This document shows, in pieces, positions 11,411 through 50,765 of a DNA stretch of 64,000 nucleotides. The first letter of the stretch is position 1. Every line of letters begins with the position of its first letter. The notes under the pieces are model-generated. The model saw only the letters and a list, made by a program, of their open reading frames with translations. It had not been told where the DNA came from and ran no database searches. The stretch is from Chamaesiphon minutus PCC 6605 (GTDB lineage: Bacteria > Cyanobacteriota > Cyanobacteriia > Cyanobacteriales > Chamaesiphonaceae). The position numbers and the translations under genes were made by a program. The stretch is taken from assembly GCF_000317145.1 (NCBI RefSeq), contig NC_019697.1:1302001-1366000 (forward strand). The letters are read 5' to 3'.

Positions 11411-12111
11411 GCAGCTAAAACACTTTGTAAAACTTGGTAGTGTGATTCGGTAAATGGTTTGAATTTAACAGTGGCATGACAAAGCAGATGATAATAACGC
11501 CAGCTAGTTTGTGAATTAACTTTAGCAACTTCAATTTCAATCGAACGATCGTGCCCGATCGCATCAGCTAGATATCCAGGGAGTTTCCCTAAAATAGTGT
11601 TTTCATAAGCAATATAGCCAGCCGAATCGACATCTAAAACTGTGCCTACTGAGAGACGATCGATATATTCATGAGTTGAAGCTTGTAATTTCACCAGATG
11701 TTGAGGCAGAAAATAAAAGTGATAGTCCCCATCACCATCAGCGGTAACTTCGGGAAAGAGATCGTAGCCATCAGTATTTGAATACCCACCACTTCTAGAC
11801 GCATAAGCAATTGGGTTAACAGGATATCTGGGTAAGCCAAAAAACTCCAATTCCTCTTGAGCATCTTCAGGACGAGCGATTGGCATCCGCTGGGCGAAAA
11901 TCGCCGGAATGTCCTGAGAAATTTTAACTTCATCAGGTTTAATCAATCCTTTTTCAAATAGCAATCGCATATTGGGACTAACATCGATCGCCTGGAAAAC
12001 TCCATTCACATAACAAGTATGGTAGCCAGCAGCCGTCAAGGACATTTTTCTAATTGGAAACCAGGATTGAGTAATCGGATCTGTCCAGCCCATAAACAGC
12101 GCAGTAATCAT
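11407..12111 (-). CDS. HIRAN-domain-like partner protein, cassette copy 1
   Basis: A 234-residue protein. The N-terminal part (LFMGWTDPITQSWFPIRKMS, CYVNGVFQAI) resembles a small HipA-N-like beta domain. A middle block ends in ASRSGGYSNTDGYDLFPEV. The C-terminal part (RLSVGTVLDVDSAGYIAYEN, LGKLPGYLADAI) corresponds to the HIRAN domain seen more clearly in the paralogue at 30039-30812. HIRAN domains bind single-stranded DNA 3' ends in HLTF/Rad5. Here the gene precedes the kinase; in copy 2 it follows it. The promoter should lie within 12112-12230. Confidence 0.6.
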   Translation of the reverse strand: MITALFMGWTDPITQSWFPIRKMSLTAAGYHTCYVNGVFQAIDVSPNMRLLFEKGLIKPDEVKISQDIPAIFAQRMPIARPEDAQEELEFFGLPRYPVNPIAYASRSGGYSNTDGYDLFPEVTADGDGDYHFYFLPQHLVKLQASTHEYIDRLSVGTVLDVDSAGYIAYENTILGKLPGYLADAIGHDRSIEIEVAKVNSQTSWRYYHLLCHATVKFKPFTESHYQVLQSVLAA

Positions 12112-16497: not shown

Positions 16498-16845
16498 TTA
16501 GGGGATAGCAGTCGGATCTAAGACGATAATTCCTTTGGGATTGCCATTTTTATCGGTTTGAAAAAACCCTGCCATTGCTGGATTCGGGACTAATTCACCA
16601 CTAAACTTAGTCCGTTGCGCCGCCAGATCCGGTTGCAGAAAAATGGGATCGATCGCCTCTTCGTCGATCCCAAAAATGTCAAAGCAACCATCGTAATCAT
16701 TTGGTCGTTCCTTGTCTGTGATGAAGCTACCGCCAATATATACCCGCCGACAGCCAGCTAGTTTCAGATTTCCCAGAGCCAATCGCAAGCCCGTGAGCAG
16801 TTGTTTAAAGGTAGTTATTGGTGCCAAACCGCTCCCAGAAATCAT
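16498..16845 (-). CDS. DUF6932-like small nucleotidyltransferase-fold protein
   Basis: About 115 residues from the ATG at 16845 (MISGSGLAPITTFKQ); a longer frame begins at 16893 but runs into pglZ. The stretch RVYIGGSFITDKERPNDYDG has the GGS and D-x-D-like spacing of minimal nucleotidyltransferases. Proteins of this type are often paired with an XRE regulator, as here. Its start lies only 3 bases from the pglZ start on the other strand, so its promoter would have to lie inside pglZ. The role as toxin is inferred. Confidence 0.6.
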   Translation of the reverse strand: MISGSGLAPITTFKQLLTGLRLALGNLKLAGCRRVYIGGSFITDKERPNDYDGCFDIFGIDEEAIDPIFLQPDLAAQRTKFSGELVPNPAMAGFFQTDKNGNPKGIIVLDPTAIP

Positions 16846-16848
16846 CCC

Positions 16849-19746: not shown

Positions 19747-19758
19747 CCTAGATCCGAT

Positions 19759-21078
19759 ATGGCAATCAGCGAAAAAGACACAGAGCATATTTTAGAGAGA
19801 CTCCGTTCAGGCACCGTCCCCGAACGGGGGCTAGAAGCCTTTGCTGTAGGGATCGATAAGCAGCAGACCGAAATCCGTCGTCAACTCAGTCTTGCGGCCA
19901 GTGGGGAAGGAGTATTCAAGTTTCTCAGGGGTGGTTATGGCTGTGGTAAAACATTCATGTCCCGTCTGGCTGTCTTAGAAGCACAGGAGCAAGGGTTTGC
20001 CACTAGCTTTGTCGTAGTCTCGGATAACGACCTGCATTTTTATAAATTTGATGATGTATATCGTAAAGTAGTGCAAGAATTAGGTACCAGTTCTTGCCCC
20101 AGAGGTGCCCTGAGCGACATCATCGATCGCTGGATTGCCAAGGTCGAAGACGCGCTGATTGCTGGCGGTGCTGACGAAGAAAGTGAGGGCTTCGATGCCC
20201 AAGTCCAACAGCGGATGGAAGAAGAATTAGCATCTCTCACTGCCGGAAAAGCTCCAGAAGATATGGCGCGAGTCCTCCGCGCGATTTTTCAACTCAAACA
20301 ACAAGGCGAAGTCGCCGAAGCCAGTGCCTTACTAGCTTGGCTATCCGGTAGTGAAAATGTATCTGCCAGTGCCAAGAAGGTGGCAGGGATTAAGGGTGAC
20401 ATCGGCAGTCGCGAAGCCCTAGATTACCTCCAGGGTATTCTGGAAATCACCAAGGCAGCGGGCTATAAAGGACTGGTGATCGCGATCGATGAAGCTGAGA
20501 CTATTTTGAGAATGCGCCATGATGTGCGCGGTAAATCCCTCAACGGTATCCGCCAGATTTGCGATGCGGCGGATCGCTATCGCGGGTTGCTGTGGTTATT
20601 TACCGGAACCTCGGAATTCTTCGACACCCAGCGCGGCGTTGCTGGACTCCAGCCACTCTACGAGCGGATTAAGTTCCAGGATGAAGGCGGATTTGTCAGC
20701 ACTCGTCAGCCCCAGCTAGAACTCAAACCCTTCGATGCCAATCGGCTGAAGGAAGTGGCACTCAAGTTGAGGGAAATATATCCCGCAGTCGATCGCCACC
20801 GTCTGATGAACAAAGTTACCGTAGACTTTATCGATCGATTAGTGGCAAAAACCACTCAAGGTTTCCAAGGCGATGTGGGTGTAGTCCCCCGTCAGTTCCT
20901 CCGGCAATTCGTCAATGTGCTGGATCTCACCGATGAGAATGAAGACTACGATCCGATGGTAGTGGCAGGCTTCGATCGAACTGCACTAAATGAGATCGAA
21001 CAGAGATTGAGCGCAGGACTTCCCTACCTCGATCCCGAACCAGAGGATGACAAGGGATACTCCCTAGTTGAGTTTTAG
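19759..21078 (+). CDS. brxD: BREX ATP-binding protein BrxD (DUF2791)
   Basis: A 439-residue P-loop ATPase. Walker A is in FLRGGYGCGKTFMSRL at about residues 52-67, and Walker B in LVIAIDEAETILRMR at about 238-252. RGLLWLFTGTSEFFDTQRG is a sensor-like segment. This is the ORC/Cdc6-related DUF2791 family found as BrxD in BREX types that also carry BrxHI. It lies 12 bases after pglZ and 2 bases before brxHI, so the three genes are one transcription unit. The frame is intact. Confidence 0.88.
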   Translation: MAISEKDTEHILERLRSGTVPERGLEAFAVGIDKQQTEIRRQLSLAASGEGVFKFLRGGYGCGKTFMSRLAVLEAQEQGFATSFVVVSDNDLHFYKFDDVYRKVVQELGTSSCPRGALSDIIDRWIAKVEDALIAGGADEESEGFDAQVQQRMEEELASLTAGKAPEDMARVLRAIFQLKQQGEVAEASALLAWLSGSENVSASAKKVAGIKGDIGSREALDYLQGILEITKAAGYKGLVIAIDEAETILRMRHDVRGKSLNGIRQICDAADRYRGLLWLFTGTSEFFDTQRGVAGLQPLYERIKFQDEGGFVSTRQPQLELKPFDANRLKEVALKLREIYPAVDRHRLMNKVTVDFIDRLVAKTTQGFQGDVGVVPRQFLRQFVNVLDLTDENEDYDPMVVAGFDRTALNEIEQRLSAGLPYLDPEPEDDKGYSLVEF

Positions 21079-21080
21079 CC

Positions 21081-23192
21081 ATGACATCCGCCTTCTCCCG
21101 CTTTCCGCCCCGACTCCAAGCCGCGATTGCTTCAAACTTAGGCTGGACATCGCTGCGTCCGGTGCAAGAACTATCGAGCCACGCCTTACTTGACGGCAAA
21201 AATGCGGTCATCCTCGCCCCAACCGCAGGTGGCAAGACGGAAGCAGCGATGTTTCCGCTGCTGGCGAAGCTGATGGCTGACGAACCCAAAGGCGTTGGGA
21301 TGATTTATGTCGCGCCGATTAAAGCTTTGTTGAACAATCAAGCAGATCGATTGGGGCGTTACACCGAGATGGTTGGTTTACGGCGATTCCTCTGGCATGG
21401 CGATATCAAAGCTGCTGACAAAAGACGGTTTCTGAACGAACCTGCTGCACTGCTGATGACCACGCCAGAATCATTAGAAGTCATGCTCCTCTCGGCAAAA
21501 GTGCCCCATGTCCAACTATTTCAAGACTTACGGGCAATCGTCATCGACGAAGTTCACTCTCTAGCTGGCAGCGATCGCGGCACACAGCTTATTTCCGTTC
21601 TGGAGCGGTTGGCAAGATTTACACCGAATGACATCCAGCGGATCGGGCTGAGTGCGACCATCGGGAATCCAGCGGATATCCTGACCTGGATGCAGGGGAC
21701 TTCCCACAGAGAGAGTTGTATTATCGATCCGCCCAAAGTAACTTCGCACAAAGACCTCAGAATTTATCTCCGCGATACCATCGGCAGTATTGCAACAGCG
21801 GCCAGCACCAAAGCTGCCGATCGCAAAAGCCTATTCTTCTGTCAAAGTCGCGCCCTTGCCGAAGACATTGCCGATCGAATGCGCGATCGTGGCACCGATG
21901 TCTTCGTCCACCACAGCTCGGTCTCGCTAGAGGAACGGACTGCTGCGGAAGCTCGATTTCAGTATGGGACAAACGCCTGTATCGTTTGCACTTCAACGTT
22001 AGAACTCGGCATCGATGTCGGCGATCTAGACCTAGTGCTCCAAGCCAATGCACCCTCGACAGTATCCTCCTTTTTGCAGCGGCTCGGTCGCACGGGTCGC
22101 CGTGCCGGACAGCAAGCCAACACCACCTTTTACTGCGAAGATATCGAACCAGTTTTACAAGCGATCTCCATCATCGAGCTGGCAAGAACGGGATGGGTTG
22201 AGTCAGTTCCCGTTCAGACAAGAGCTTGGCCTGTGCTAGTGCATCAGTTACTGGCACTAACGCTTCAGTTTGGTGGTGTGAGCACCGAGCGATGCTGGGA
22301 GTATCTTTCGGTCGTACCTGACTTTAGCGGGATTGCCTACGCAGAATTTGAAACCTTAATTGAGCACATGACTCAGACAGGGTATCTATTTGGATCTGGA
22401 GGATTGCTATCGATCGGCGATAAAGCAGAGAAGGTCTATGGTCGGAAGAACTTTATGGAGCTTTATGCTGTATTTAGTAGCCCGCAGCTTTATAAAGTTC
22501 AAACTAAAGCCAACTATACAATTGGCTCCTTAGAGCAGATCTTCGTCGATAAACTAGTTCCAGAAGTTAGCTCATTCATTTTAGGCGGGAGATCTTGGAC
22601 GGTATTGCACGTCAACCATGCGGAGCGAAGCGTGTTGGTGATACCAGCTCCACGCGGGAAAAAGCCCAGTTGGGGAGGATTCATCCCAGAATTGCTGGGA
22701 TTTGAACTATGTCAGCAGGTTCGGCAAATCATTCTCAGTCAAGATTCGCTCCCTTACCTTGATGAGCAAGCACAGTTCGTACTGGATGAATATCGGCACG
22801 AACTAGCCCCGCTACTAAAGTCCTCTGGCTGGAGTCTTCAATTTGACCCAGATCGAGCCATCTGCTGGACATTTGCAGGTGGTGCCATCAATCACACACT
22901 TAAATATGGACTGCAAGTTTATTCAGACTCAAAAATAGTTGTCGATAATTTTAAATTAAAAATTGAAGGAGATAGTTTTACAATAAATAGTTTGAAACTG
23001 GCGATCGCAGAGATTTCCAAACCTTCATTTTGGCAATCGGCAGCAACTCAAGCTGCTATATCAATCAATTTACCAGAGTATCGACTCAGTAAATTCCAAC
23101 AAGCATTACCGGATATCTATTCTATTGAAATCATTCAAAACTACTTGCTAGATATTTCTAAGTCTATTGAGTTTCTTCAAAGAGTTAAGTAG
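21081..23192 (+). CDS. brxHI: BREX Lhr-like helicase BrxHI
   Basis: A 703-residue superfamily 2 helicase. Motif I LAPTAGGKTEAAMFPL, motif II IVIDEVHSLAG, motif III IGLSATIGNPADIL, motif V CTSTLELGIDVGDLDLVLQ and motif VI FLQRLGRTGRRAG are all intact. The C-terminal 300 residues are an Lhr-type winged-helix and accessory region. With pglX, pglZ and brxD this gives the downstream half of a BREX locus with BrxD/BrxHI (type 2 or type 6 like; type 6 is my preference because pglX-pglZ-brxD-brxHI are contiguous). BrxA, BrxB, BrxC and BrxE are not in the window. Confidence 0.88.
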   Translation: MTSAFSRFPPRLQAAIASNLGWTSLRPVQELSSHALLDGKNAVILAPTAGGKTEAAMFPLLAKLMADEPKGVGMIYVAPIKALLNNQADRLGRYTEMVGLRRFLWHGDIKAADKRRFLNEPAALLMTTPESLEVMLLSAKVPHVQLFQDLRAIVIDEVHSLAGSDRGTQLISVLERLARFTPNDIQRIGLSATIGNPADILTWMQGTSHRESCIIDPPKVTSHKDLRIYLRDTIGSIATAASTKAADRKSLFFCQSRALAEDIADRMRDRGTDVFVHHSSVSLEERTAAEARFQYGTNACIVCTSTLELGIDVGDLDLVLQANAPSTVSSFLQRLGRTGRRAGQQANTTFYCEDIEPVLQAISIIELARTGWVESVPVQTRAWPVLVHQLLALTLQFGGVSTERCWEYLSVVPDFSGIAYAEFETLIEHMTQTGYLFGSGGLLSIGDKAEKVYGRKNFMELYAVFSSPQLYKVQTKANYTIGSLEQIFVDKLVPEVSSFILGGRSWTVLHVNHAERSVLVIPAPRGKKPSWGGFIPELLGFELCQQVRQIILSQDSLPYLDEQAQFVLDEYRHELAPLLKSSGWSLQFDPDRAICWTFAGGAINHTLKYGLQVYSDSKIVVDNFKLKIEGDSFTINSLKLAIAEISKPSFWQSAATQAAISINLPEYRLSKFQQALPDIYSIEIIQNYLLDISKSIEFLQRVK

Positions 23193-24063: not shown

Positions 24064-24188
24064 CGGATTTTAGCGAAGGTTAAATTAACTTTTGCTCCAT
24101 GTTGAATCTGGAGTTGTTCGATCGTGCCGCGATTAACTTCGATCGCCGCATCATATTGTTGTAAAGTAGCATAAGTCGGACACTTATC

Positions 24189-25528
24189 ACCTGAGTTCGA
24201 TGAGGCTGTGCCTCATCATCAAATCAAGTCTCTGACTGTGCTTGAGTCATAAACATCAATTATTAAAATGAGATATTTCCAAGTCATTATCAATAAGCTT
24301 TGATTATTGATAATGACTTGGAAGTAAAACGTCGATCGATAATTACAAATAATTAACAATTAATAAGTTATTAAAAGTTCTGAGGAGCGGTCGGCAAATA
24401 AAAGTACAAATAGCATTGCAACCCTTATGTATAATCTCTGATTCTGGTTAAATTAATATATATATTAGAAAACCACACTTAGATGATGGACTTAACCGAA
24501 CTATTTTGTGAAATAGATGATTTCTGCCAAGATTGGCTAGCAACTTTTTCATCAATATCTTTCCCTGCCAACGGTAATAGCTTACCAAAACGCTGCGGCC
24601 TATCACTGAGCGAGGTCATGACTATTTCTATTCATTTCCATCAGTCAAGCTATCGAACATTTAAGGATTATTACCTCAAAAATGTTTGTCAAAACTTAAC
24701 TGATTATTTTCCAAAGTTGGTTAGTTACAATAGAATGGTGGAGTTGATGCCAAATGTTTTAATAGCTTGCCTTTATTATCTCAACTCTCGTCAAGGTAAG
24801 GTGACTGGAATTAGTTTCGTGGATAGCACGGCTATTCCAGTTTGTCACCCAAAAAGAATTAAAAGAAATAAGGTTTTCAAAGAAACTGCCAAGCTGAGTA
24901 AGAGTTCTATGGGATGGTACTTTGGATTCAAGCTTCATTTAATTATTAATGATTGCGGAGAGATATTAAGCTGCAAAATCACACCTGGCAATGTCGATGA
25001 CCGCACACATTTGCCATCAATGACACAGGGAATATCAGGAAAAATATTTGGAGACAAAGGATATATTAAGAAAGAACTATTTGAAGAATTATTAAATAAA
25101 GGATTGCAGCTAATTACGCCACTAAAATCTAATATGAAAAACAAGCTCATCTTGATGGATGACAAAATATCACTTCGGAAACGCTCGCTGATTGAAACGG
25201 TAAATGACCAGTTAAAAAATATTTGTTATTTAGTCCATTCTCGCCATCGGAGCTTGCATAATTTCATGCTAAATCTGATTACAGCATTAATTGCTTATAC
25301 TCATCAACCTAAAAAGCCGAGTTTGAAGCTAGATGAGCCTGCTCAAAACTTCTTTAGTATTGTTCCTATTTAGCCGATTATTTATTTATTAACTTAACTC
25401 AATATTTTCAATCATTAATCATCTTAATGATGGGTTTTATCGTGCCAAAATTTACATAAAATTTGCTATTAAGCTGAACATGTTGTCACATCTGAGTTCG
25501 ATGAGGCTATGCCTCATCGAACTCAGGT
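24189..25528 (+). mobile_element. IS982-family insertion sequence
   Basis: Terminal inverted repeats are ACCTGAGTTCGATGAGGC (24189-24206) and its exact complement at 25511-25528. Next to the right end the sequence folds on itself: CTGAGTTCGATGAGGC at 25493 and GCCTCATCGAACTCAG around a 3-base loop. No clear target duplication flanks the element. It interrupts a small gene of the minus-strand operon. Confidence 0.82.
24483..25373 (+). CDS. IS982-family transposase
   Basis: A 296-residue intact transposase. DDE residues are visible in TGISFVDSTAIPVCHPKRI, GKIFGDKGYIKKEL and RSLIETVNDQLKNI. The phrase SSMGWYFGFKLHLIIN is typical of the IS982 family, and the length is as expected. The frame is complete and the ends match, so the element could be active. 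Confidence 0.9.
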   Translation: MMDLTELFCEIDDFCQDWLATFSSISFPANGNSLPKRCGLSLSEVMTISIHFHQSSYRTFKDYYLKNVCQNLTDYFPKLVSYNRMVELMPNVLIACLYYLNSRQGKVTGISFVDSTAIPVCHPKRIKRNKVFKETAKLSKSSMGWYFGFKLHLIINDCGEILSCKITPGNVDDRTHLPSMTQGISGKIFGDKGYIKKELFEELLNKGLQLITPLKSNMKNKLILMDDKISLRKRSLIETVNDQLKNICYLVHSRHRSLHNFMLNLITALIAYTHQPKKPSLKLDEPAQNFFSIVPI

Positions 25529-25643
25529 TTGTAGCCAAATTGGACAGAAGGCAAGAGCGAGAAAAAGGAGATGAGACTTATTGAAAGGTTTTTTATTAGT
25601 TTTGTAAATATTAAATATGTTACGCATCATATTCGTTTTGACC

Positions 25644-30038: not shown

Positions 30039-30812
30039 TTAGCAACATTCAGCTAGTGTAGGCGTAGGGACGATCGATTGATATTCATCGCCAGAGAATG
30101 GCTGAAATTCTTGTGTCCATTTGGCTGTTAATTTGCACAGCAATCGAAATTGGAGTGGCGTGGGTGCCGGATTGACTTTTTCGACGACTACTTTCACTGC
30201 TTGGGGCTGTTTGCCAACTAATTGGAAAAAGTCTTTGACCAAATAGCGCGGACAGAAACCAATATTGTGTCGATCGATCGTCCGCAGCATTAAGGCGTTA
30301 GCATCGTACTCATTTTGAATGTCGTGCATGAGCATCAATTCTTCACCAATGACACATTCTGCCGCCCGCTGTTGGGCGGAGGCGGGGTAGTGTCTGAGTC
30401 CGTGGGTAAAGAAGTGCATTTCGTATTCCCCAGCAGCGTTGCGCTCTGGCATTGAGAAGACTTCAAGGCTGTCGGTGACTCGTTTTCCGCCACTACGACC
30501 GAGGAGGGTAATCGGATCGATTGATGCAGGGTTGCCGTTTGAGTCGAGATTAAGCCAGTCGATGAATTCTGGGTATTCAGGACGCGATTTGTTGAGAAGA
30601 CGGTTGGCGAATGGCCAGAAAAGTTCGATCGAGGTGTAGGCCCGATCGAATTCTGGGAATGCTAACAGGGGGCGGAAATTCGCTGATAACTGAGCTTGGA
30701 GTGCGCCCTGAATATAGACAAAACCATATCTCTGACCATCATAGGTCAGTTTGCCGATCGGGAACCAGGCGCGGGAAACGGCATCTTGCCAAGTGAGGAA
30801 AAGAGTTTTCAT
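30039..30812 (-). CDS. HIRAN-domain protein, cassette copy 2
   Basis: A 257-residue protein. An N-terminal region resembles a HipA-N-like small domain (LTWQDAVSRAWFPIGKLTYD, FVYIQGALQA, then LLAFPEFDRAYTSIELFWPF), followed by LLGRSGGKRVTDSLEVFSMP. The C-terminal HIRAN domain is clear: CVIGEELMLMHDIQNEYDAN, ALMLRTIDRHNIGFCPRYL. HIRAN domains recognise 3' ends of single-stranded DNA, which suggests sensing of DNA damage or phage replication. It overlaps the stop of the upstream kinase gene by four bases (ATGA). Confidence 0.72.
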   Translation of the reverse strand: MKTLFLTWQDAVSRAWFPIGKLTYDGQRYGFVYIQGALQAQLSANFRPLLAFPEFDRAYTSIELFWPFANRLLNKSRPEYPEFIDWLNLDSNGNPASIDPITLLGRSGGKRVTDSLEVFSMPERNAAGEYEMHFFTHGLRHYPASAQQRAAECVIGEELMLMHDIQNEYDANALMLRTIDRHNIGFCPRYLVKDFFQLVGKQPQAVKVVVEKVNPAPTPLQFRLLCKLTAKWTQEFQPFSGDEYQSIVPTPTLAECC

Positions 30813-31717
30813 GGTAGTTCCTCTTGAAGAGCTAGTAATCGATCTTTGTTAAATGCCAGAATCCCAGCGGCAAACTCTTTGGCTGGTGGAGACATACGAT
30901 CTGCGGGGACTCTGGCTAATAAGCTTTCGACCCACTCTGATGATATGCCAGAGAGTTGCATTAACCAAGCTCTAGCGGCTTGGGGATAGGATTTAGCGGC
31001 AGTTTGAAACGTCGCTAGAGTTGTTAAAGGTTTGCTATCGTTTGCTTGGGCATAAAAAGCTGAGTAGTTCTTCTTTAAGTATGCCCCAACGGTTTTATTC
31101 TGGAGATGTTTTAACCGTTTTTCCTCTGGTAATTCTCGCCCCAGACTGGAAGCATGGTCGTAGGTAGGTGCCAGATGGATGGTGCGATCGATCGTGCTGA
31201 CTAAGCCCCAGTTTTCATGATGTCTGTCCCCATTGCCAATCAAAGCATCGAGTAGCAAGTAACCAACAAATGTATCGGCGGCACTTTCAATCGATGTTGG
31301 TGGTGTCCAGTTGATGGGGATCTGAGTATTGTTGATCGTAATTGCTTGGAACACGACATCTAACGTGTGTTGAGAGACATTGTATAGTTCCTCACGCGGA
31401 TAGCTAGAAACAATTCCAGTTAAGACATCATTACCGTGGATTAGGTCTTCATTTGGCATAATCATGGCTGGAGAGACGGTTCCTCTTTGTCCTTGCCAAA
31501 TTCCTAATTCTTGTTTGGCGTGAGGTAATCCCAGTGCTTCGCAAAGTTCAGCAGCGATTTTTTCTGCCCAGTCCTCACCTGTATTAGGTCGTGCGCTTTT
31601 AAAAAGACAAGTACAAAGTTCGGGGTCGTGGAACCAAAATTTTCGCTTTGTTCCCATTGCTTCTGGTGCTCTCGCCGCATCAGATGGTACTTGAATAACT
31701 GGAAATTCGTCGATCAT
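30809..31717 (-). CDS. HipA-like kinase, cassette copy 2
   Basis: About 302 residues from the ATG at 31717 (MIDEFPVIQVPSD); the longer frame to 31762 includes repeat sequence. The kinase signature is intact: GYLLLDALIGNGDRHHENWG (catalytic Asp and Asn) and LAPTYDHASSLGRE (metal-binding Asp). The N-terminal part (WFHDPELCTCLFKSA, WAEKIAAELCEALGLPHAKQ) aligns with copy 1. It lacks HipA's N-subdomain, which may be supplied by the HIRAN protein. In this copy the kinase comes first. It lies between drmMI and drmA in the same orientation. Confidence 0.75.
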   Translation of the reverse strand: MIDEFPVIQVPSDAARAPEAMGTKRKFWFHDPELCTCLFKSARPNTGEDWAEKIAAELCEALGLPHAKQELGIWQGQRGTVSPAMIMPNEDLIHGNDVLTGIVSSYPREELYNVSQHTLDVVFQAITINNTQIPINWTPPTSIESAADTFVGYLLLDALIGNGDRHHENWGLVSTIDRTIHLAPTYDHASSLGRELPEEKRLKHLQNKTVGAYLKKNYSAFYAQANDSKPLTTLATFQTAAKSYPQAARAWLMQLSGISSEWVESLLARVPADRMSPPAKEFAAGILAFNKDRLLALQEELP

Positions 31718-31745
31718 AGTTAAGTGTATTACTTTACTGATAATG

Positions 31746-31815
31746 CGCCCCCTAGCCCCCAATTCTGGGGGAACCGGATTGGGAAGTCCCCCAAACTTGG
31801 GGGATTTAGGGGGCG
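31746..31815. repeat. GC-rich palindromic repeat, copy 2
   Basis: GCCCCCTAGCCCCCAATTCT, GGGGGAACCGG and AGTCCCCCAAACTTGGGGGA make the same double palindrome as copy 1. This copy fills the gap between the kinase and DUF559 genes. Confidence 0.75.
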
Positions 31816-34264: not shown

Positions 34265-35246
34265 TTGAACCAAAGATTCTACTAATTTCGTATTCAAGAC
34301 TTGACTGTCTCCTGTATTTTCATAATATGCACCAAACTTACTACCACCGCTGCTAATCCAGGCCACTTATATCGCCGTGTGGCATTGTAGATTAGACCTC
34401 CATTATTACAAATGAACCGCAATCCAGTAGAGCGGGTATCACCTTGGGCGATGGTATTGGTGGAAATCAAACCCATTGTGCCATTCGAGCGTAACAAATC
34501 GAACGATCGCCGAAAGAAGAAGGCAACTAAATCGGAGTTACCGTGAGACTCCGCGTATGTGTCCTTGAGCCAATCGGGATAACCTTCAGCATTGCCGCTA
34601 GTCGTCGTGTTTTTGCCAGCAAACGGCGGGTTGCCGACGATCGCATCAAAACCCCCATTCTCCCTGTCAAATACCTCTGGAAACTCAATCTCCCAATTAA
34701 ACGGCACCACCCGTTCCCGCAACCGCGCTGAAACCGCTATCATTCGCTCCGGCTGCAACTGCACCATCCCCGCATAATCCCGCCGTAGATTCTCCCGATC
34801 CTGCTTATTTTTACCCACCCCATCAAAGAACGCCGCAATCGAAACATCCCCTCGCAGACGCACACCCGCCAAAGCTAACTCCGCCGACTGCCACATTTGC
34901 GCCTTCGCCAACGCCTGAGCATCCGATCGAGTATCCTGTACCTGAATCTCCGATCTAAATAACTTCACTTCCAACAGCTTTTTATTCAACTCTTCCCCAA
35001 TCGGCGAACCCTTTAAAGGTGATTCGATCTGCCCAAACGCATTAATCTCCCGCCGCGTTCTCCCCACTAGGGAATCCCCACATTTGAGGGCATGATCCAA
35101 GAATGTAAATGGCAAATCCCGCGAGAGCGTCACCAACCACAGCGATAATTTCGCTAAATTCACCGCAAACGGATTCTTGTCCACTCCATACAAACACTGC
35201 TATGCCACCAACCGCCGCGCCATTAACAGCGGCTCTTCTTCTGTCA

Positions 35247-35312
35247 GCCCCCCAGCCCCCAAGTTTGGGGGAGCCGGATTTAAGTCCCCCAAACTTGGGG
35301 GATTTAGGGGGC
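35247..35312. repeat. GC-rich palindromic repeat, copy 4, in frame in drmMI
   Basis: CAGCCCCCCAGCCCCCAAGT, GGGGGAGCCGG and CCCCCAAACTTGGGGGATTT. It is read as protein within drmMI (PLNPPSLGDL and PPNLGAGGL) with the frame kept. Confidence 0.8.
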
Positions 35313-35968
35313 TTACTTCCCGATTCCAAGCTGCCACTACCTGCTCCGCCAACTGACGACAAGCCTCGACTAAAAACGCCCCCGAACCCATTGCCAAATC
35401 GCAGACTTTTAGCTCCAAAATCTGCGCCGTCGTGGGTGTATCTCCTAATCCTGCCAAAATTGGGCGGAGGGTATTCTCAACGATCGGTTGAGTCAACTTG
35501 CGCGGTGTATAGTGAGAACCCGATCTGCGCCGTTCCTCTGTAGGTTGGAGATAGAGCGAGCCAACGGGTAATAGCTGTTTAGTTCGTCCCGAAACCCTTT
35601 GCCCGATGGCAGCGATCAGCGCATCGATCGTTTGCGCTTCCTTGACTCCCTTCGCGGCATTTGCCGCCAGTTCGCAGTTTGCCCATTCCTTCAGCAGCTT
35701 GGCACGATCTCCAGACTTAGCTGCCAATAAACTTTCCACATCTACCACCACCGTCGTCGAATGCTTGGAACCCTTGGGCTTACTATTCACGCCGATCGAG
35801 ATCCTGGTAGCGCGATTGACGGTATAGCCCATAATTCCCTCATATACAGAGCCAATCTGCTCCACATCTAGCGATCGATATGACAGCCGCTCCCCATCCA
35901 ACATCAGCAGCTTATCCAATACCCGATAGATTACCCCATCGGGTATCTGGGGTAGTGTTGAGCCGATT

Positions 35969-36105
35969 TGCCCCCCAGTCTGCCCCCCAACCCCCAATTC
36001 TGGGGGAGTTAATTTCTTGAAGTCCCCCAAACTTGGGGGATTTAGGGGGCGAGATCCATGCTGCCCCCCAGCCCCCAATTCTGGGGGAGCCGGATTTAGA
36101 GGGCT
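35969..36105. repeat. GC-rich palindromic repeat, copies 5 and 6, in frame in drmMI
   Basis: Two copies lie nearly in tandem (35969-36051 and 36062-36103). They are translated as PLNPAPPELGAGGQHGS and PLNPPSLGDFKKLTPPELGV inside the methyltransferase, at a point where the family has no such Pro/Gly-rich insert. Confidence 0.8.
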
Positions 36106-36422
36106 ATTCCCCTCCAAAAATGGAAACTCCTGTGGATCGAAAAGTTGCCCATATCGTGCTGGTAAATAATCTGGAGTCGCGCCGCCACCTTCATAAATCA
36201 GCCGAAATAGACTCAATAAGCCAACCCAAGCCCCATAGCGATCGTCCATCGTATCGGGATAACTACTATTGTCCGATCGCAATTGCTCGTACAATCCCGA
36301 TACCGAATAATACTGCTGATACACCGGATCGTTGGGCATAATCCCCTCATCCTCGGCGTAGAGCATAAACACCAACCGCATCAGCGTGGTAATTAAACCC
36401 CCATACAGATGCTGATTCCAAT

Positions 36423-36492
36423 CGCCCCCTAAATCCCCCAATGCTGGGAGACTTTCCATTCCGGTTCCCCCAGCATTGGGGGCTAGGGGGCT
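36423..36492. repeat. GC-rich palindromic repeat, copy 7, in frame in drmMI
   Basis: GCCCCCTAAATCCCCCAATG and CCCCCAGCATTGGGGGCTAG. It is translated as SPLAPNAGGTGMESLPALGD followed by LGGD in the methyltransferase frame. Confidence 0.8.
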
Positions 36493-37096
36493 TCCGCCCA
36501 ATAGTCGCCCATTCGCCGCCCCATCCGCGATCTGAAAACCGCGTAGCAATTCCCACAGCGCATCCACCACCTGCTCGGCTAACTGCTCCGACACCGCCGA
36601 CTGATAATCCCGACTACTCGCCAAAATCTGCGGCAACCGTCGATCGCTCGAACCATTAAACATCCGTTGGGCATTCAAAAGCGTATCCAATGCCCCTAAA
36701 ATTAGCCTTCCAGCCACTTCGCCCATCGCCGCGAGGGGAAATGTCAAATGACCGGAAGATTCGCCCCGTGGCGCATATACAAGGCGTAAAGCTTCGCCAT
36801 TCCACAAGATACCTGTAGGGATTTGACTCGATCGTAATAATCGCTCGAATCGCTCTTGTACCGTCGCATTCCAACTACTATTGGCTGGGCATTTATCCAA
36901 CTCCTGCCCATCAGCGACTACCTGCACCAATACAATCCATTCCTGACTATCGGGATCTTTCACGCCGTAGGTAGGTTGCAATAGTTCGCCATATTCTGGC
37001 AGTGCTAAAGTCATCGAGTCCGGTAGATCGCTCTGTGGGACTAAATCCGCCGCTTCCCAGTCCAAAATCTGCTGGGTAAAAGTGGGGAAATCGATC

Positions 37097-37225
37097 CCTC
37101 AAGATTATGCAGTAATCCTTAACAAGAACCTTGTTCAAGATGCATTACGCAAGGGTACAATACAACAAAGGGATACATTTTTAATAAATAAATAATCTAT
37201 ACTATATCGACAGTGAGGAGTACCA
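37097..37225 (+). promoter_or_regulatory. Promoter and ribosome-binding region of the Panacea gene
   Basis: TTGTTC (about 37131) and TACAAT (about 37156) could be -35 and -10 elements, slightly wide in spacing. A ribosome-binding site, GAGGAG, at about 37213 stands 7 bases before the GTG start at 37226. Sequence is AT-rich compared with its flanks, consistent with transfer. Confidence 0.4.
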
Positions 37226-37852
37226 GTGGCTACAGCCGTACATGTTGCTAATTTCTTCTTGTCTAAGGTTGACAGAGAAGCTGGAGATACCATTACTCAG
37301 CTTAAACTTTACAAGCTAGTGTATTATGCTCAAGCTTGGAATCTTGTTTTTTTGATGAGACCACTATTTGATAGTGATATACAAGCATGGATTCATGGCC
37401 CAGTGCCTATTGAATTAAGATCGTCTTTCTCAAAGTATGGAAATGATTCAATTCCAGAGCCAGAAAGCTCAACTGGTGATTTTGGTCTAGATGAAAAAGA
37501 GTTGAAGGTCTTGGATCTGGTGTGGGAGACATATGGAAATTTGAACGCACACGATTTAAGAAACCTAAGTCATAATGAACTTCCGTGGATAACCGCACGA
37601 GGAAATAGTCAGGAATCTGATTATGTTAATGCTGTTATCGAAAAGTATGATATTCGTGATTATTATGCGGACTATGGCAGCATTTTAAAAGATGGTCGTT
37701 TTTTGATAGATTCTGTCGTTATTGAAGAAGATAAGAGTTCACTTTTCTCTTTTAGTCTGTCTCTAAAAAATGGAACGTCTATTGACGTTCCATTTAACAA
37801 GCTTGAAAAAACTCTTCAAGAATACAGAGGACAACTCACAACACAAAACTAG
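37226..37852 (+). CDS. Panacea-domain (DUF4065, SocA/PanA-like) protein
   Basis: A 208-residue protein with GTG start. The conserved Panacea core is at residues 1-110: VANFFLSKVDREAGDTITQL, KLYKLVYYAQAWNLV, IQAWIHGPVPIELRSSFSKY. It is followed by an extra C-terminal beta-rich part (SLFSFSLSLKNGTSIDV). Panacea proteins act as antitoxins or protease adaptors (GepA, SocA, PanA). No obvious partner toxin is adjacent; the C-terminal extension might replace it. The gene points against drmD and drmMI and sits where the 3' end of drmD and the 5' end of drmMI are missing. Base composition is lower in GC than the neighbours. Confidence 0.83.
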   Translation: MATAVHVANFFLSKVDREAGDTITQLKLYKLVYYAQAWNLVFLMRPLFDSDIQAWIHGPVPIELRSSFSKYGNDSIPEPESSTGDFGLDEKELKVLDLVWETYGNLNAHDLRNLSHNELPWITARGNSQESDYVNAVIEKYDIRDYYADYGSILKDGRFLIDSVVIEEDKSSLFSFSLSLKNGTSIDVPFNKLEKTLQEYRGQLTTQN

Positions 37853-38426
37853 CAAATCCTTTCCGGCTGGGCTTGATAACAGTCGGTAGATTAAGTGATA
37901 AGTGAAACAGATCGGCGCAATAGTTCTGAAGGTTAATCCCTTCTCTCGCCGCATCAGTAGCAATCAAAATTCGCAACGGGTGAGTATGTGGATCGGCATT
38001 AAAAGCGATTTTAATCTGTTCGCGATTCTGTTCGCCCATGCCGCCATGAAAGAATCCCAGCCGTTGGGACGTATTGCCAATCGCTTGTATAAGTTGCCGT
38101 TCTAAATAGCTTTTGGTGTCCAAATATTCAGTGAAAATCAACAGACGGCGATCGTTCCAAACAGCTTGCGGTTGCCCTAAATTTGGACACATATACGCCT
38201 TAATCCAAGCCACCAAATGCTGCACCTTCGCATCCGCCTGATGCCGCGCATTCTGAGCGATATTCCCCATTTCCGCCAATAGTGCCAACTCTTCAGCCCC
38301 AATCTCTCGATTAGTCAGTTGAGTAGCTCTAGTCATCTGAGTATCTTCTTCGGCTTGAACTTCAGCCTCGCTGAGTTCGGCTCGATCGTCATCAGATCCG
38401 ATCGATTGACGCAATAAGGGGAAATC

Positions 38427-38491
38427 GCCCCCTAAATCCCCCAATTTTGGGGGACTTTCTCCTGTTCCCCCAGACTTGGGGGCTAGGGGGC
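38427..38491. repeat. GC-rich palindromic repeat, copy 8, in frame in drmD
   Basis: GCCCCCTAAATCCCCCAATT and CCCCCAGACTTGGGGGCTAG. It is translated inside drmD as PLAPKSGGTGESPPKLGDLG with the frame intact. Confidence 0.8.
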
Positions 38492-39002
38492 GTTCGCTCT
38501 GACGCTGTTTCTCTGCTTGTCTTTCGATCGAGGCTCGATGTACTTTCAACGTCCGTGCAAAGGCTTCGATCGACGAAAGTAACCGTTTTTGCAGAGAAGT
38601 AATTACCAGCTTGGCAGTATTCTGAGTAGACTTAGGCGCGTCTTTGAGTCGTTGCTCCCGACAGGTGCGATATTGCTGGAGCAGTTGGGCGAGAACCAAT
38701 TCTGGAGCATCTACAGGTAAACCCTCGATCGAGATCGGGATAATCTTCCGCTGCGAGAAGTCTCGATCTCCCGTATCTCGCAAATCTTGCTTCAACCGCC
38801 TTACCATCACCGTCTCTAAGGCTTTTCGATGCTTCTCTGGCTCGAATACTCCACGACAGAACCGTTGCGGATCGAGGATTTCGAGCAGGGCTGTGAAGCT
38901 GTTAGAGTGCCCATTATGGGGAGTCGCCGAGAGAAATAACTTATGTTCAAAGCGCGGTGCTAATTCCCGCATAGTTTTGGTGAGTTGAGAATCGAGTCTC
39001 GT

Positions 39003-39030
39003 TCCGAGAGGCTACGCCAACGCATACCGC
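39003..39030. repeat. Short dispersed repeat in drmD, creates a stop
   Basis: TCGTTCCGAGAGGCTACGCC followed by AACGC. On the coding strand this reads GCG TTG GCG TAG, ending the central drmD frame. Frame phase before and after is the same. Confidence 0.75.
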
Positions 39031-39235
39031 GAACCACTCGCTGGCGCAGCATTATGCGCCTCATCCAAAATCAACATCGAACCAGGCGCAAACTCTTCCA
39101 GCCAAATCCGCAAAGGTGCCGCATAAGCTTCATCCCGCACCAAAGCATGAGAAATAATAAACCGATTGTGAGTAGCCCAAGGATTTACCCCATAACCGCG
39201 CTCCCGCCGCTTACTCGCAAAGAACTCGCGATTCT

Positions 39236-39260
39236 CGTTCCGAGAGGCTATGCCAACGAT
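39236..39260. repeat. Short dispersed repeat in drmD, read in frame
   Basis: CGTTCCGAGAGGCTATGCCA followed by ACG. It is translated as VGIASRNE without a stop. The base change from GTAGCC to ATAGCC lies in a phase where neither creates a stop. Confidence 0.75.
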
Positions 39261-39593
39261 TACCTGAAATAGCAGCCCAAATCTGCTCTCCATCTCCTCT
39301 TGCCATTGCCGCACTACCGAAGGCGGACAAGCAATTACCACCCGCCGAATCTTCTGGCGCGTAATCATTTCCCGCAAGATTAGCCCCGCCTCGATCGTTT
39401 TCCCCAAACCCACATCATCAGCAATAAACAGCGACACGCGAGGCATCAACAAAGCCTTCCGCAACGGTTCCAACTGATACGCCTTAACTTCAATCCCCGC
39501 TCGATAAGGAGCCTGAAACAACTTGGGATTGGTAGAGGTAACGCAATTCCAGCGCAGAGTGTGGAGATAAGCCGAGAAGTAGTGAGGTCGATT

Positions 39594-39622
39594 CTCCGAG
39601 GAGACGCTACGCGAACGAATCC
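39594..39622. repeat. Short dispersed repeat in drmD, frameshifting
   Basis: TCCGAGGAGACGCTACGCGA followed by ACGAATCC, a diverged member of the family. The frame before it (WEQVAQRG) and the frame after it (NRPHYFSAYLHTLRW) differ in phase. Confidence 0.65.
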
Positions 39623-39954
39623 CCGTTGAGCAACCTGCTCCCAAGTCGAATTTCCCAAAATCGCCGCATCGATCTCCCGCGCCCAAAAGACTTCTAACAC
39701 TTGCCCCTGAGCATCATCATTCAAGCAAGCCAGCGACACCAATGTATCCCCTTGAGGATGAATCGGTGGAGTAACGGCTTCGACTAAATACTGACGGGCG
39801 CGGACGTTAACGATCTGTCCGATTTCGGGGGTAGCAGGCATGATGGGAGATGGATGCAATGTCCCACAATCTTATCCCAACTTGGTGGAATAGCTCGTCT
39901 GCAATGAACGTTAAAAGCCAACTGACAGAACGCCGCAGCATTATCGTTGGGGAG

Positions 39955-47643: not shown

Positions 47644-47721
47644 CGTCTCTATCAAGATAATCGCTCGGTCTAGAATCCATAGAACGTGTAAGAGTTGATG
47701 CAAAAGATAAACTAAAACTTC

Positions 47722-47877
47722 ATGGCTACGCAATCGCCATTCCCGATGTTCGCAATTTATCTTCGTTCTGTCAACATTGTTGAGGGTGCCAAACACGTCA
47801 CCAATCTCACCACTGAACGGTTATGGATTCTCCAGTTCTTTGGTGTTCCTTGCCGCAAATATTACCTTCTTTCCTGA
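47722..47877 (+). pseudogene. Short fragment, possible 5' end of a lost cas gene
   Basis: A frame of 51 codons (MATQSPFPMFAIYLRSVNIV, EGAKHVTNLTTERLWILQFF, then GVPCRKYYLLS and stop). It lies just before the cas8-like remnant, on the same strand, and shows protein-like composition, but I cannot assign it. Sequence from 47878 to 48000 has stops in all frames or no recognisable coding. Confidence 0.35.
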
Positions 47878-48006
47878 TTTACCTGCGGAATGTGGGCTAC
47901 AGGCAAATACAGACGGAATTGATATTAACAATCTTCTGTTTGGTGTAGATGTATTTGATCTATTCAGGAAAAGCATGAAGCACAAATATTAAGTATTCAG
48001 CATTAC

Positions 48007-48540
48007 TTGTCTGACAAAGACACGATCGAAGAACTTACAAAACTAGAGCCGAAAATTTTTAATTCTACCTTTCGGATTCAACACTGGCAAAATTTAATTC
48101 ACAATCGATCGCGGATTTTTGGTTTTGATGCGCTCATACATAATTCACCTACTAAAAAAACTATTGACGATCGTTGGTTCCGTCGAGACTTCCGAACTTT
48201 ATTTCATCCGCAATCTAATCCTATGACACCAGAAGAAACTGATATAGACAAAGCTGAAGACATGGAACCTGCCGAACTATCTGTACCCAAAGAGATATCT
48301 CTAGAAGTGCTTGTCCTGCGGCTATTGAAAAATTACACTCGTCATAAACTCAAGCATCAATTCGGCATTGAGTGGAACAAGGAGTGGAGTAGTCAAAACT
48401 CAGCAAGTCGGAACCAAGACCCAGCATATCAAGCATACAGGCAGAGAAAAGAGCATGTGATAAAAGATCTACACATCGATTTCCGTCGCCATCGTCACCC
48501 TAATGAATTTTTAGCTTTCTTTGCCACCAAAGTGCTTTAA
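48007..48540 (+). pseudogene. cas8: Type I CRISPR Cas8-like protein, C-terminal remnant
   Basis: About 177 codons without a proper start. RSRIFGFDALIHNSPTKKTI and DDRWFRRDFRTLFHP occur first. The C-terminal part (LRLLKNYTRHKLKHQFGIEW; YQAYRQRKEHVIKDLHIDFR; RHRHPNEFLAFFATKVL) resembles the helical end of Cas8 proteins of the I-B/Myxan kind (R-R-x-P/D-x-F-x-x-F-F pattern). Position before cas7-like and cas5-like remnants supports this. The assignment is moderate. Confidence 0.5.
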
Positions 48541-48610: not shown

Positions 48611-48985
48611 ATGATGGTGGCGCACCAAAAGTTGAGTTTATGGACGGCTGCATTAATTAAAGCGATCGGGCAACTAAACAGAGTAGCTGGAGGAGATAGC
48701 GTTAGTCATTTTCAGATGGGACCCAGAAGTATTATTATTCGACTCACACCATCTTTAGTTGCTGGGTATGATAACTACGGATTTCAAGAAGATGGCAGCT
48801 TCAAAGAACTAAATCGACTTGTTAACGGTGAATTGCCAGGGCAAGAATTTTGGTTGGGCGGAGAGATCGTTCGTCAAATGTCTCAAGACATCAAACAAAA
48901 ATTAGCAGATCGCCACGTCCATCTAATAGATAGCCCCCAAAAACTCTTGGCTGAAGTCTCCCAGCAGTTTTTAGGAGGAGCGTAA
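48611..48985 (+). pseudogene. cas7: Type I CRISPR Cas7-like (DevR/Cst2 type) protein, C-terminal remnant
   Basis: About 124 residues: LIKAIGQLNRVAGGDSVSHF and QMGPRSIIIRLTPSLVAGYD follow the DevR/Cst2 pattern (VAGNHARS…P-x-S-I-V-L-R). The rest (FWLGGEIVRQMSQDIKQKLA) ends at 48985. The N-terminal two thirds are missing. It lies 5 bases before the cas5-like start. Confidence 0.5.
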
Positions 48986-48990
48986 AAATC

Positions 48991-49315
48991 GTGGAAAAAC
49001 TCTGGTTGCGCGTTCGTGCTCCGTTCGCTACTTATTCCACATGACGACCGCCCACGCTATGGTTTACCCTTCGCAGGTGATAACAACTATCTATTCGATC
49101 GAATCGACTGCCTCGACGAACCCATTCCATCTCATTGGTTCGTATCGGTTGACTCAAAGCTCGAACAGGAAACAGGTGCCGTTAGCTTAACCGTTGAGAT
49201 CGATCGTCACGCTCCCAGCAAGACTAAAAGTATGCTGTTTTCGGCAACGAAAGATTCTTTAAATTCGCTACCCGATCGTGATTGGCTATCAATGTATGAG
49301 AGGAGAGTTGCGTAG
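48991..49315 (+). pseudogene. cas5: Type I CRISPR Cas5-like protein with internal deletion
   Basis: The GTG at 48991 begins VEKLWLRVRAPFATYST, a typical Cas5 N-terminus. The sequence then jumps, with a frame change near 49040, to DRPRYGLPFAGDNNYLFDRI, a conserved block near the Cas5 C-terminus, and ends DWLSMYERRVA at 49315. About 120 residues between the two are missing. Cas5 binds the crRNA 5' handle in Cascade; this copy is dead. Confidence 0.68.
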
Positions 49316-49320
49316 AAGGT

Positions 49321-49433
49321 AAACCCCGCCTAGAATGAGACCCTAAAACAACCCCAAATACTTGTCTCCGCTATGTCATGGGCACTTAAGAAGCTACTCT
49401 AAAAAACTATGGTTTTCAAGTTAGGCGGGGTTT
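49321..49433. repeat. 12-base inverted repeat with long loop after cas5
   Basis: AAACCCCGCCTA (49321-49332) and TAGGCGGGGTTT (49422-49433) are perfect inverted repeats 89 bases apart. No coding sequence lies between. It could be a small non-autonomous element or a structured transcript. Confidence 0.6.
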
Positions 49434-49691
49434 AGAAGCATTTTTTGCAAGCATCTCCAGGTGTTTAGAGTTATTTTTCAGAAAAAAGCCGTAAACCTTC
49501 ACTCTGTAAGGATTTAGTTCATATTTTATTACGACAGGTGCTTGCAACTGCTGAAACGTAATTCTGGCAGAGGTTTTAAGTCGATATGTGTGAAGTTATA
49601 GCCTCAATATTCTGTAAAATTGGTATGATGTTGACAGGTGCTTGTAATAGTTCGGAGAAACCCTTTGCTGTCAAGCATTCTGGACTCCGCC
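49434..49691. other. Non-coding stretch before the CRISPR remnant
   Basis: No gene seen. GACAGGTGCTTGCAA at about 49533 and GACAGGTGCTTGTAA at about 49636 are a direct repeat about 100 bases apart, and GCAAGCATCTCCAGGTG lies near 49449. The stretch may be an old leader or further decayed array. Confidence 0.4.
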
Positions 49692-49872
49692 CTAAAATCA
49701 CCTTAGATGCCATATGGCGTTAAGCACATGCTATGGGGATTAATGTTCTACCAGTTTATAGAGCTAAAATCACCTTAGATGCCATATGGCGTTAAGCACA
49801 TGACGATCGTTGACACTACCAGCGTGAGCTTACAAACCTTTTCCTCAGATATCGTAAGGTGTTGAGCACTTT
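49692..49872 (+). CRISPR. Vestigial CRISPR array (two identical repeats, one degenerate)
   Basis: A 39-base unit starting CTAAAATCACCTTAGATGCC occurs at 49692-49730 and, unchanged, at 49764-49802, with a 33-base spacer. A degenerate copy (CCTCAGATATCGTAAGGTG, TTGAGCACT) lies at about 49834-49872 after a 31-base spacer. The periods are 72 and 70 bases. The palindrome GCCATATGGC and the ending GCGTTAAGCAC fit cyanobacterial type I repeats. It lies downstream of the cas8-cas7-cas5 remnants. Confidence 0.75.
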
Positions 49873-49892
49873 GAAAACTCATTTGAAAATAA

Positions 49893-50025
49893 AATTTCAG
49901 CTTATGAGTTTTTAGAGTGCTAAAATTTCACGTTATGAGTTACTAATTTCATATTATGTGTAACTTTGCTCATTCAGAACGCTGTTACTTCGTCACTAAT
50001 ATTTCAGCTTATGTGTAAACCGACA
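49893..50025. repeat. Tn7-like transposon end with four TnsB-site-like repeats
   Basis: Read on the minus strand from 50025 the sequence begins TGTCGGTTTACACATAAGCT. Four copies of a 16-base unit follow on the plus strand: AATTTCAGCTTATGAG (49893), AATTTCACGTTATGAG (49924), AATTTCATATTATGTG (49945) and ATTTCAGCTTATGTG (50000). A 5'-TGT terminus with several short direct repeats is the layout of Tn7-like ends bound by TnsB. The opposite end and any tns genes are not in the window. Confidence 0.5.
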
Positions 50026-50031
50026 CGAGCG

Positions 50032-50412
50032 ATGATGTCGGCAGATTTTATCGCTGATTTAGTCGGCATACCAGTATCACTCGATCTAGAGGCATTTATT
50101 CAATTTGGGTTAGAATTTCGGACAGCTTTTCCCGATGGTTGTCATCAGTTTGATGAGGTAATTGAGGAAGATACTAAAGTAGTAACGATCGGTAAATTTC
50201 GCGGTACACATTTGGGTAAATTTCAAGGTTTACCTGCGACAGGGAAATCGGTAGAGATCGAAGTTACTCATATCGATAAACTCATCGACGATCGGCTCGT
50301 CTATCATTGGGGACAAGGCAACCAAGCGGGAATGATGCAACAACTGGGGATTGTGTTCGTTCCAGGCTTATCTTTAATTGCCGCAGCCATCCGCCATCAA
50401 ATCCGAGGTTAA
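50032..50412 (+). pseudogene. SnoaL-like ester cyclase family protein, N-terminally truncated
   Basis: From the ATG at 50032 about 126 residues are encoded. LVGIPVSLDLEAFIQFGLEF, RTAFPDGCHQFDEVIEEDTK, KFRGTHLGKFQGLPATGKSV and DKLIDDRLVYHWGQGNQAG are typical of the SnoaL-like/ester cyclase fold. The first 30 or so residues of the family (up to the first helix and beta-strand) are missing, and the coding similarity starts where the Tn7-like end stops. A shortened protein could be made from the ATG. Confidence 0.7.
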
Positions 50413-50455: not shown

Positions 50456-50493
50456 CTACAACCTGGGATCTTATTTTCTTGCTATTTCCTCAA

Positions 50494-50637
50494 GCCTAAA
50501 ACCTAAAACCTAAAGCCTAAAGCCTAAAGCCTAAAGCCTAAAGCCTAAAACCTAAAGCCTAAAGCCTAAAGCCTAAAGCCTAAAGCCTAAAGCCTAAAGC
50601 CTAAAGCCTAAAGCCTAAAGCCTAAAGCCTAAAGCCT
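50494..50637. repeat. Heptanucleotide tandem repeat (CCTAAAG)n
   Basis: About 20 head-to-tail copies of CCTAAAG, with a few CCTAAAA variants near the left end. Such heptamer tracts are known as short tandemly repeated repetitive sequences in cyanobacteria. The period of 7 has no coding meaning. It lies between the truncated SnoaL-like gene and the coiled-coil gene. Confidence 0.9.
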
Positions 50638-50765
50638 CACTAATGGGTAATTACACCCCAAATAGTGAGGAGGATCGATTATAATCTCTGTGGAAAGTTG
50701 AACCTATAGGCTGGCGGCTACCTCATTTATCCGCTCGTCAAATCCTCCTACCGTATTCCCCATCA

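Follow-up and report, generated by a model that had tools for sequence, protein, structure and literature searches.

A decayed Tn7-like element of Chamaesiphon minutus that probably belongs to a type I-B CAST lineage apart from I-B1 and I-B2

The window analyzed here, a stretch of 64,000 nucleotides from Chamaesiphon minutus PCC 6605 (C1:1302001-1366000), carries the remains of a CRISPR-Cas locus next to a transposon end. The cas and array features all lie on the plus strand. A cas8 (cmx8) remnant (47694-48540) consists of three pieces from the C-terminal half, corresponding to residues 273-300, 347-363, and 373-561 of Cas8 from a related element in the genome G188. It is followed by a cas7 remnant (48611-48985; residues ~191-302 of 306, 63% identity to G188 Cas7) and a cas5 (cmx5) remnant (49016-49315; residues ~136-230 of 233, 61% identity to G188 Cas5). 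A leader region (49440-49697), whose resemblance to the G188 leader was judged by eye, precedes an array that, on a corrected count, holds two full repeats and one diverged repeat. Repeat 1 (49698-49727; TCACCTTAGATGCCATATGGCGTTAAGCAC) and repeat 2 (49770-49799) are identical and of a type common to G188 and another relative, G177; the diverged last repeat (TTCCTCAGATATCGTAAGGTGTTGAGCAC type) occupies 49840-49869. No target was found for spacer 1 (49728-49769) in plasmid and phage collections, or for spacer 2 (49800-49839) in the same collections and, at up to three mismatches, elsewhere in its own genome. Array-directed homing of the window element was dropped, since spacer 2 matches nothing else in that genome. 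The first-pass annotation, which was made from the sequence alone, had described cas8-cas7-cas5 beside an array without cas3, cas1, or cas2. The order and the absences held, the sole cas3-like match in the element being a weak one to a BrxHI helicase, but the genes turned out to be 5′-truncated stumps rather than whole genes.

Four 16-bp repeats follow the array where the annotation had placed them. These putative TnsB sites, located by motif search on the minus strand, are R4 (49894-49909; ACTCATAAGCTGAAAT on that strand), R3 (49925-49940), R2 (49946-49961), and R1 (50001-50016). They lead to a terminus, TGTCGGTTTACACATAAG, which occupies 50008-50025 on the minus strand and starts with TGTCGG at 50025, as had been noted. 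Shuffled sequences gave a mean of 0.66 matches at up to three mismatches, compared to four in the window. Exact matches to the motif ACNCATAANNTGAAAT number nine in the 6.76-Mb genome (three contigs): four at the window end, four at a far end, and one elsewhere. Chance repeats were ruled out by the second end and by this genome-wide count, in which eight of nine exact matches are end sites.

When the genome was searched for the terminus, three sites emerged: the window site, a site at C1:1191836 (plus strand; TGTCGGTCTACACATAAA), and one isolated site. The two tips are alike at 22 of 25 bases, and a simple count gives 8e-4 such matches expected per genome. Each end has four 16-bp sites that face inward, giving paired inverted ends; the sites are about 20 bp apart at C1:1191836 and more loosely spaced at the window end. 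The element thus spans 160,190 bp (C1:1191836-1352025), with its far terminus about 110 kb upstream of the window start. Inside the far end lie tnsA, a frameshifted tnsB, a tnsC without approximately residues 126-218, and a broken tniQ. The proposal that 50025 is a CAST (CRISPR-associated transposon) end was therefore borne out by the matching TGTCG end and by the tnsA, tnsB, tnsC, and tniQ genes sought upstream of the window, mostly broken as they are. The extent suggested at the same time, an island from 2.9 to 50 kb, was mistaken. Because tnsB, tnsC, tniQ, cas8, cas7, and cas5 are broken and neither cas6 nor tnsD was found in a search between the two ends, this copy is a fossil and can no longer move. 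A lone terminus-like sequence at C1:2588185-2588202 is alike at 16 of 18 bases. No cluster of 16-bp sites accompanies it, so it was excluded from the ends, and it could be a relic.

The remainder of the window side of the element (1-47650) is cargo, a patchwork of defense genes, IS elements, and a WD40-ATPase gene between the two ends, which extends upstream of the window to C1 ~1196740. It includes PglZ/BrxD/BrxHI genes (16801-23192), DrmMI and DrmD pieces (34294-39686), and HipA-like PDC-M03A genes (10475-11410 and 30809-31762). Each HipA-like gene is paired with a companion with HIRAN-like similarity, so that the gene pair occurs twice (10475-12111 and 30039-31762). A 6.3-kb PglZ-BrxD-BrxHI module (16895-23186) has a 95% identical copy on another replicon (C3:297992-304283), and an IS element of ~1.34 kb (24187-25530) has more than 12 near-identical copies in the genome. 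The 20 kb of cargo between 16.5 and 36.4 kb had no long collinear match in genomes of the same genus, only scattered pieces.

Beyond the terminus, host DNA begins with a SnoaL-like gene (50026-50412, plus strand), and the annotation was right that this gene starts without its N-terminus; the open reading frame is short by about 24 codons. The intact gene that it had suggested looking for in relatives is present in G003, a genome of the same genus, in which a recombinase gene, a 229-aa open reading frame, and a 151-aa SnoaL-like protein stand together without 16-bp repeats. Where the two proteins overlap they are 90% identical, and the G003 protein includes the N-terminus absent from the window. 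Two outcomes had been named beforehand as speaking against a transposon end, namely an intact SnoaL-like gene accompanied by the repeats and the lack of any other end; neither occurred. G003 also carries TGTGGGTCTACATCTAAATTG 14 bp past its recombinase stop codon (L047 4148-4168), alike at 18 of 21 bases to the end in L057 (Chamaesiphon sp. GL140_3), and this stretch is probably the scar of an earlier, lost element. Just outside the element (50488-50640), a 7-bp unit (CCTAAAG) is repeated in tandem, over a shorter stretch in G003.

The insertion itself is not a simple one. A 5-bp target-site duplication is absent in the window genome (TCTTG versus CGAGC) and likewise in G188 (GTTAT versus AAGGC), and about 830 bp that separate the flanks in G003, comprising the 229-aa gene and the start of the SnoaL-like gene, are missing from the window genome. 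One flank was therefore rearranged, and the absent duplication accordingly weakens the integrity of a single insertion rather than the identity of the element. The left flank was considered as the rearranged one and dropped, since the window genome and L057 have the same recombinase-tnsA junction; for this reason it is probably the SnoaL side that changed, when DNA next to the element was deleted or when tandem elements recombined.

The same facts support the most serious alternative, in which two elements of the family were once neighbors, the first inserted at the recombinase gene and the second in the SnoaL-like gene, and recombination or deletion left the outer end of each. Tandem copies do occur: in G177 (C93; L050 3987-4343), an element end directly adjoins part of a second tnsA, which suggests that elements can insert in tandem even if target immunity exists. 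The decayed 160-kb copy, which may be such a composite, is longer than the 140-kb maximum that one survey gives for Tn7-like elements (PMC8649781). Against a composite, no internal cluster of end-like sites was found in the 182 kb scanned, the tns and cas genes form a single set with each present once, and an adjacent deletion from the right end accounts for the same flanks. We regard a composite as a real but minority possibility.

Relatives in other cyanobacteria, most of them metagenome-assembled genomes, keep tnsA, tnsB, tnsC, tniQ, tnsD, cas6-8-7-5, and the array and have no cas3, cas1, or cas2. When 84,980 species genomes were scanned for TnsB by only two 7-residue patterns, matches were obtained in G188 (Xenococcaceae MO_167.B27), L056 (PMM_0072), L057, and a decayed Chamaesiphon piece. 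A search within the family to which G188 belongs added G177 and G055 and, more distantly, G227 and G281. A class-wide TnsB search returned only a Tn5053-type relative besides the window genome. The G188 element measures 22,588 bp and lies on one contig with both ends, tnsA, tnsB, tnsC, tniQ, tnsD, BREX cargo (brxA, brxB, brxC, pglX, pglZ, and brxL, between tnsD and cas6), cas6-8-7-5, and the array. Its cas6 and cas8 are adjacent with no cas3 between them, and its tnsC and tniQ are fused by a deletion. G177 has intact tnsB, tnsC, tniQ, and tnsD on one contig and cas8 (in two pieces), cas7, cas5, the array, and end sites on another. Separate, overlapping tnsA and tnsB reading frames were found in the window genome, G188, G055, L056, and L057.

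This recurrent layout bears on whether the cas genes serve the transposon at all. Defense systems are common in Tn7-like elements (PMC8649781), and G188 carries BREX, so a defective I-B immune system might ride as mere cargo on a transposon that performs no RNA-guided transposition. Yet cas3, cas1, and cas2 are absent while the array is kept, the cas block lies next to both array and end in each of the three cas carriers, and two TniQ-family proteins are encoded compared with one in cas-free sister elements. The passenger explanation is rather unlikely in our judgment.

The window genome offers a direct yardstick for classification, as it contains a second CAST. After glmS, at C1 ~3593800-3605700, come tnsA, tnsB, tnsC, tniQ, cas6, cas8, cas7, and cas5, the last genes being interrupted by IS elements. 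Within the whole glmS element (C1:3593795-3607654; L013 1795-15654), cas8 and cas7 are cut by IS elements and no tnsD stands beside tniQ. Its TnsB and TnsC score 403 and 295 bits against those of Tn7, and its TnsB is 22% identical to that of the clade described here. The glmS element is a decayed I-B1 CAST, and measured against it the 160-kb element is not I-B1. For the comparisons that follow, this element stood in for I-B1, and PDB chains together with the fused TnsAB of HK-01 stood in for I-B2, in place of the AvCAST and PmcCAST proteins. PF11426, used as an I-B1 probe, had no match anywhere.

By these measures, the transposition proteins of the clade stand apart from those of the known I-B CASTs. 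Clade TnsB scores 238 bits against I-F3, 56 against Tn7 TnsB, and 40 against the fused 898-aa chain 9bw1_M, which the HK-01 fused TnsAB matches with 913 bits; clade TnsC scores 154 bits against I-F3 and 22.6 against Tn7. In the TnsB tree, the six CAST-clade members form one branch (100/100) nested in a cyanobacterial group (99/97) that is placed next to I-F3 (85/91). The unity of the sister group, whose members lack annotated cas genes in their vicinity, is weaker (78/93). The Cascade proteins point elsewhere: Cas6, Cas8, and Cas5 match I-MYXAN models (Cmx8 branch) and not type I-F. Clade Cas7 is 47-54% identical to that of canonical cas3-bearing loci compared with 23% to that of the I-B1 CAST in the same genome, to which Cas5 is also 23% identical. 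Cas7 scores 40 bits against 8fcj-8ff5, which we take to be the Cascade of an I-B2 CAST. An I-B2 structure is mentioned in a review (PMC11406308).

The annotation had assigned the locus to the known cyanobacterial type I-B CASTs, and an ordinary I-B1 or I-B2 element does have points in its favor: the cas genes are type I-B without cas3, cas1, or cas2, the host is a cyanobacterium, the relatives have both TniQ and TnsD, and I-B1 and I-B2 are described as cyanobacterial (PMC11406308). The assignment failed on both halves of the machinery, with TnsB and TnsC far from Tn7/I-B1 and from the fused I-B2 TnsAB, and with a Cascade closer to canonical Cmx8-type loci than to the Cascades of I-B1 and I-B2 CASTs. 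The characteristic features are also lacking. Neither glmS insertion nor Tn7-branch Tns proteins, both I-B1 features, were seen in the clade; TnsA and TnsB are separate rather than fused as in I-B2, the insertion places examined in the clade are not at tRNA genes, the I-B2 homing sites, and the 64-kb window contains no tRNA gene. We consider an ordinary I-B1 or I-B2 CAST quite improbable. A reading of the 16-bp repeats as promoter or regulatory elements unconnected with a transposon, and of the SnoaL-like gene as one that simply starts late, fits their position upstream of a reading frame in the same direction, but it is negligibly probable given four exactly matching sites next to tnsA at the far end, almost none anywhere else, and an intact gene without repeats in G003.

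Collectively, these results make it likely that the window end is the cas- and array-side end of a decayed 160,190-bp Tn7-like CAST whose lineage, nearest to I-F3 in its transposition proteins, is apart from I-B1 and I-B2 and represents a third co-option of an I-B (Cmx8/I-MYXAN) Cascade. With somewhat less assurance, we favor the broader view that a cyanobacterial Tn7-like lineage near I-F3 made this third capture independently, that TnsD homes it to a gyrB or tyrosine-recombinase 3′ end, and that intact members of the G177 and G188 type are RNA guided.

Where the parts survive, as in relatives, such an element would probably work as follows. Cas6 would process the array, and a complex of Cas8, Cas7, and Cas5 with crRNA would bind a matching target, which would stay undestroyed without Cas3. 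TniQ would then couple the Cascade-crRNA complex to the ATPase TnsC. Once bound to the 16-bp sites, TnsA and TnsB would cut at each end of the element and join it to DNA next to the target. A second and longer TniQ-family protein with a C-terminal helix-turn-helix, TnsD, would guide the element to one set place in the chromosome, presumably the gyrB 3′ end in three relatives and, in Chamaesiphon, that of a tyrosine-recombinase gene. The places of insertion are consistent with this scheme. The tnsA end lies 4 bp past the gyrB stop codon in L056 and G188 and close behind it in G055, and it lies 14 and 25 bp past the tyrosine-recombinase stop codon in the window genome and L057, respectively. By analogy with established Tn7 biology (PMC11406308), we infer that TnsD is the homing factor here. 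G177 TnsD has a TniQ domain and, in its C-terminal half, helix-turn-helix similarity. The window-genome element sits at the recombinase gene without tnsD. A full-text literature search returned no Tn7-like precedent for gyrB 3′-end homing.

Two captures of I-B systems by CASTs, I-B1 and I-B2, are counted in a survey from 2023 and a review from 2024 (PMC10293859, PMC11406308). A third, if true, would extend the set by an I-B CAST that is compact (22.6 kb), encodes TnsA and TnsB as two proteins, and apparently homes to the 3′ end of gyrB.

Five known systems lie near the clade. First, the I-B1 CASTs (AvCAST/Tn7743), which are Tn7 relatives at glmS, share cas6-8-7-5 and an array without cas3, cas1, or cas2, as well as TniQ, separate TnsA and TnsB, and cyanobacterial hosts. 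However, their TnsB and TnsC belong to the Tn7 branch, they home to glmS, and their Cas7 and Cas5 have the low identity to the clade given above. Second, clade TnsB and clade Cas7 each score only about 40 bits when compared with the I-B2 stand-in chains. The I-B2 (PmcCAST/Tn7744) and I-D CASTs are likewise Tn7-like and cyanobacterial with a dual TniQ-TnsD arrangement, but theirs is a fused TnsAB with homing to tRNA genes (PMC11406308). Third, the I-F3 CASTs (Tn6677, PseCAST, and Aeromonas L109) come nearest in TnsB and TnsC, encode TnsA and TnsB separately with an overlap of a few bases, and have ends in the four-site style, whereas their Cascade is I-F (csy) and their hosts are proteobacterial; the Cascade of the clade is I-B.

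Canonical cyanobacterial I-B/I-MYXAN (Cmx8) CRISPR-Cas loci encode homologues of Cas6, Cas8, Cas7, and Cas5, with Cas7 the closest match noted above, but they have cas3 between cas6 and cas8, cas4-cas1, and cas2, and no tns genes. Cas-free Tn7-like elements on Allocoleopsis pMIC7113.04, Nostoc N6 pNPM2, HK-01 plasmid1, and Calothrix Cal7716_p2 encode TnsA, TnsB, and TnsC and are the sisters of the clade in the TnsB tree (39-46% identity), but the annotated ones have one TniQ-family protein, and no cas gene is annotated within 15-18 kb. If the third capture is true, these cas-free sisters and the cas3-bearing cousins of the Cascade would form a before-and-after pair for the taming of a CRISPR effector by a transposon.
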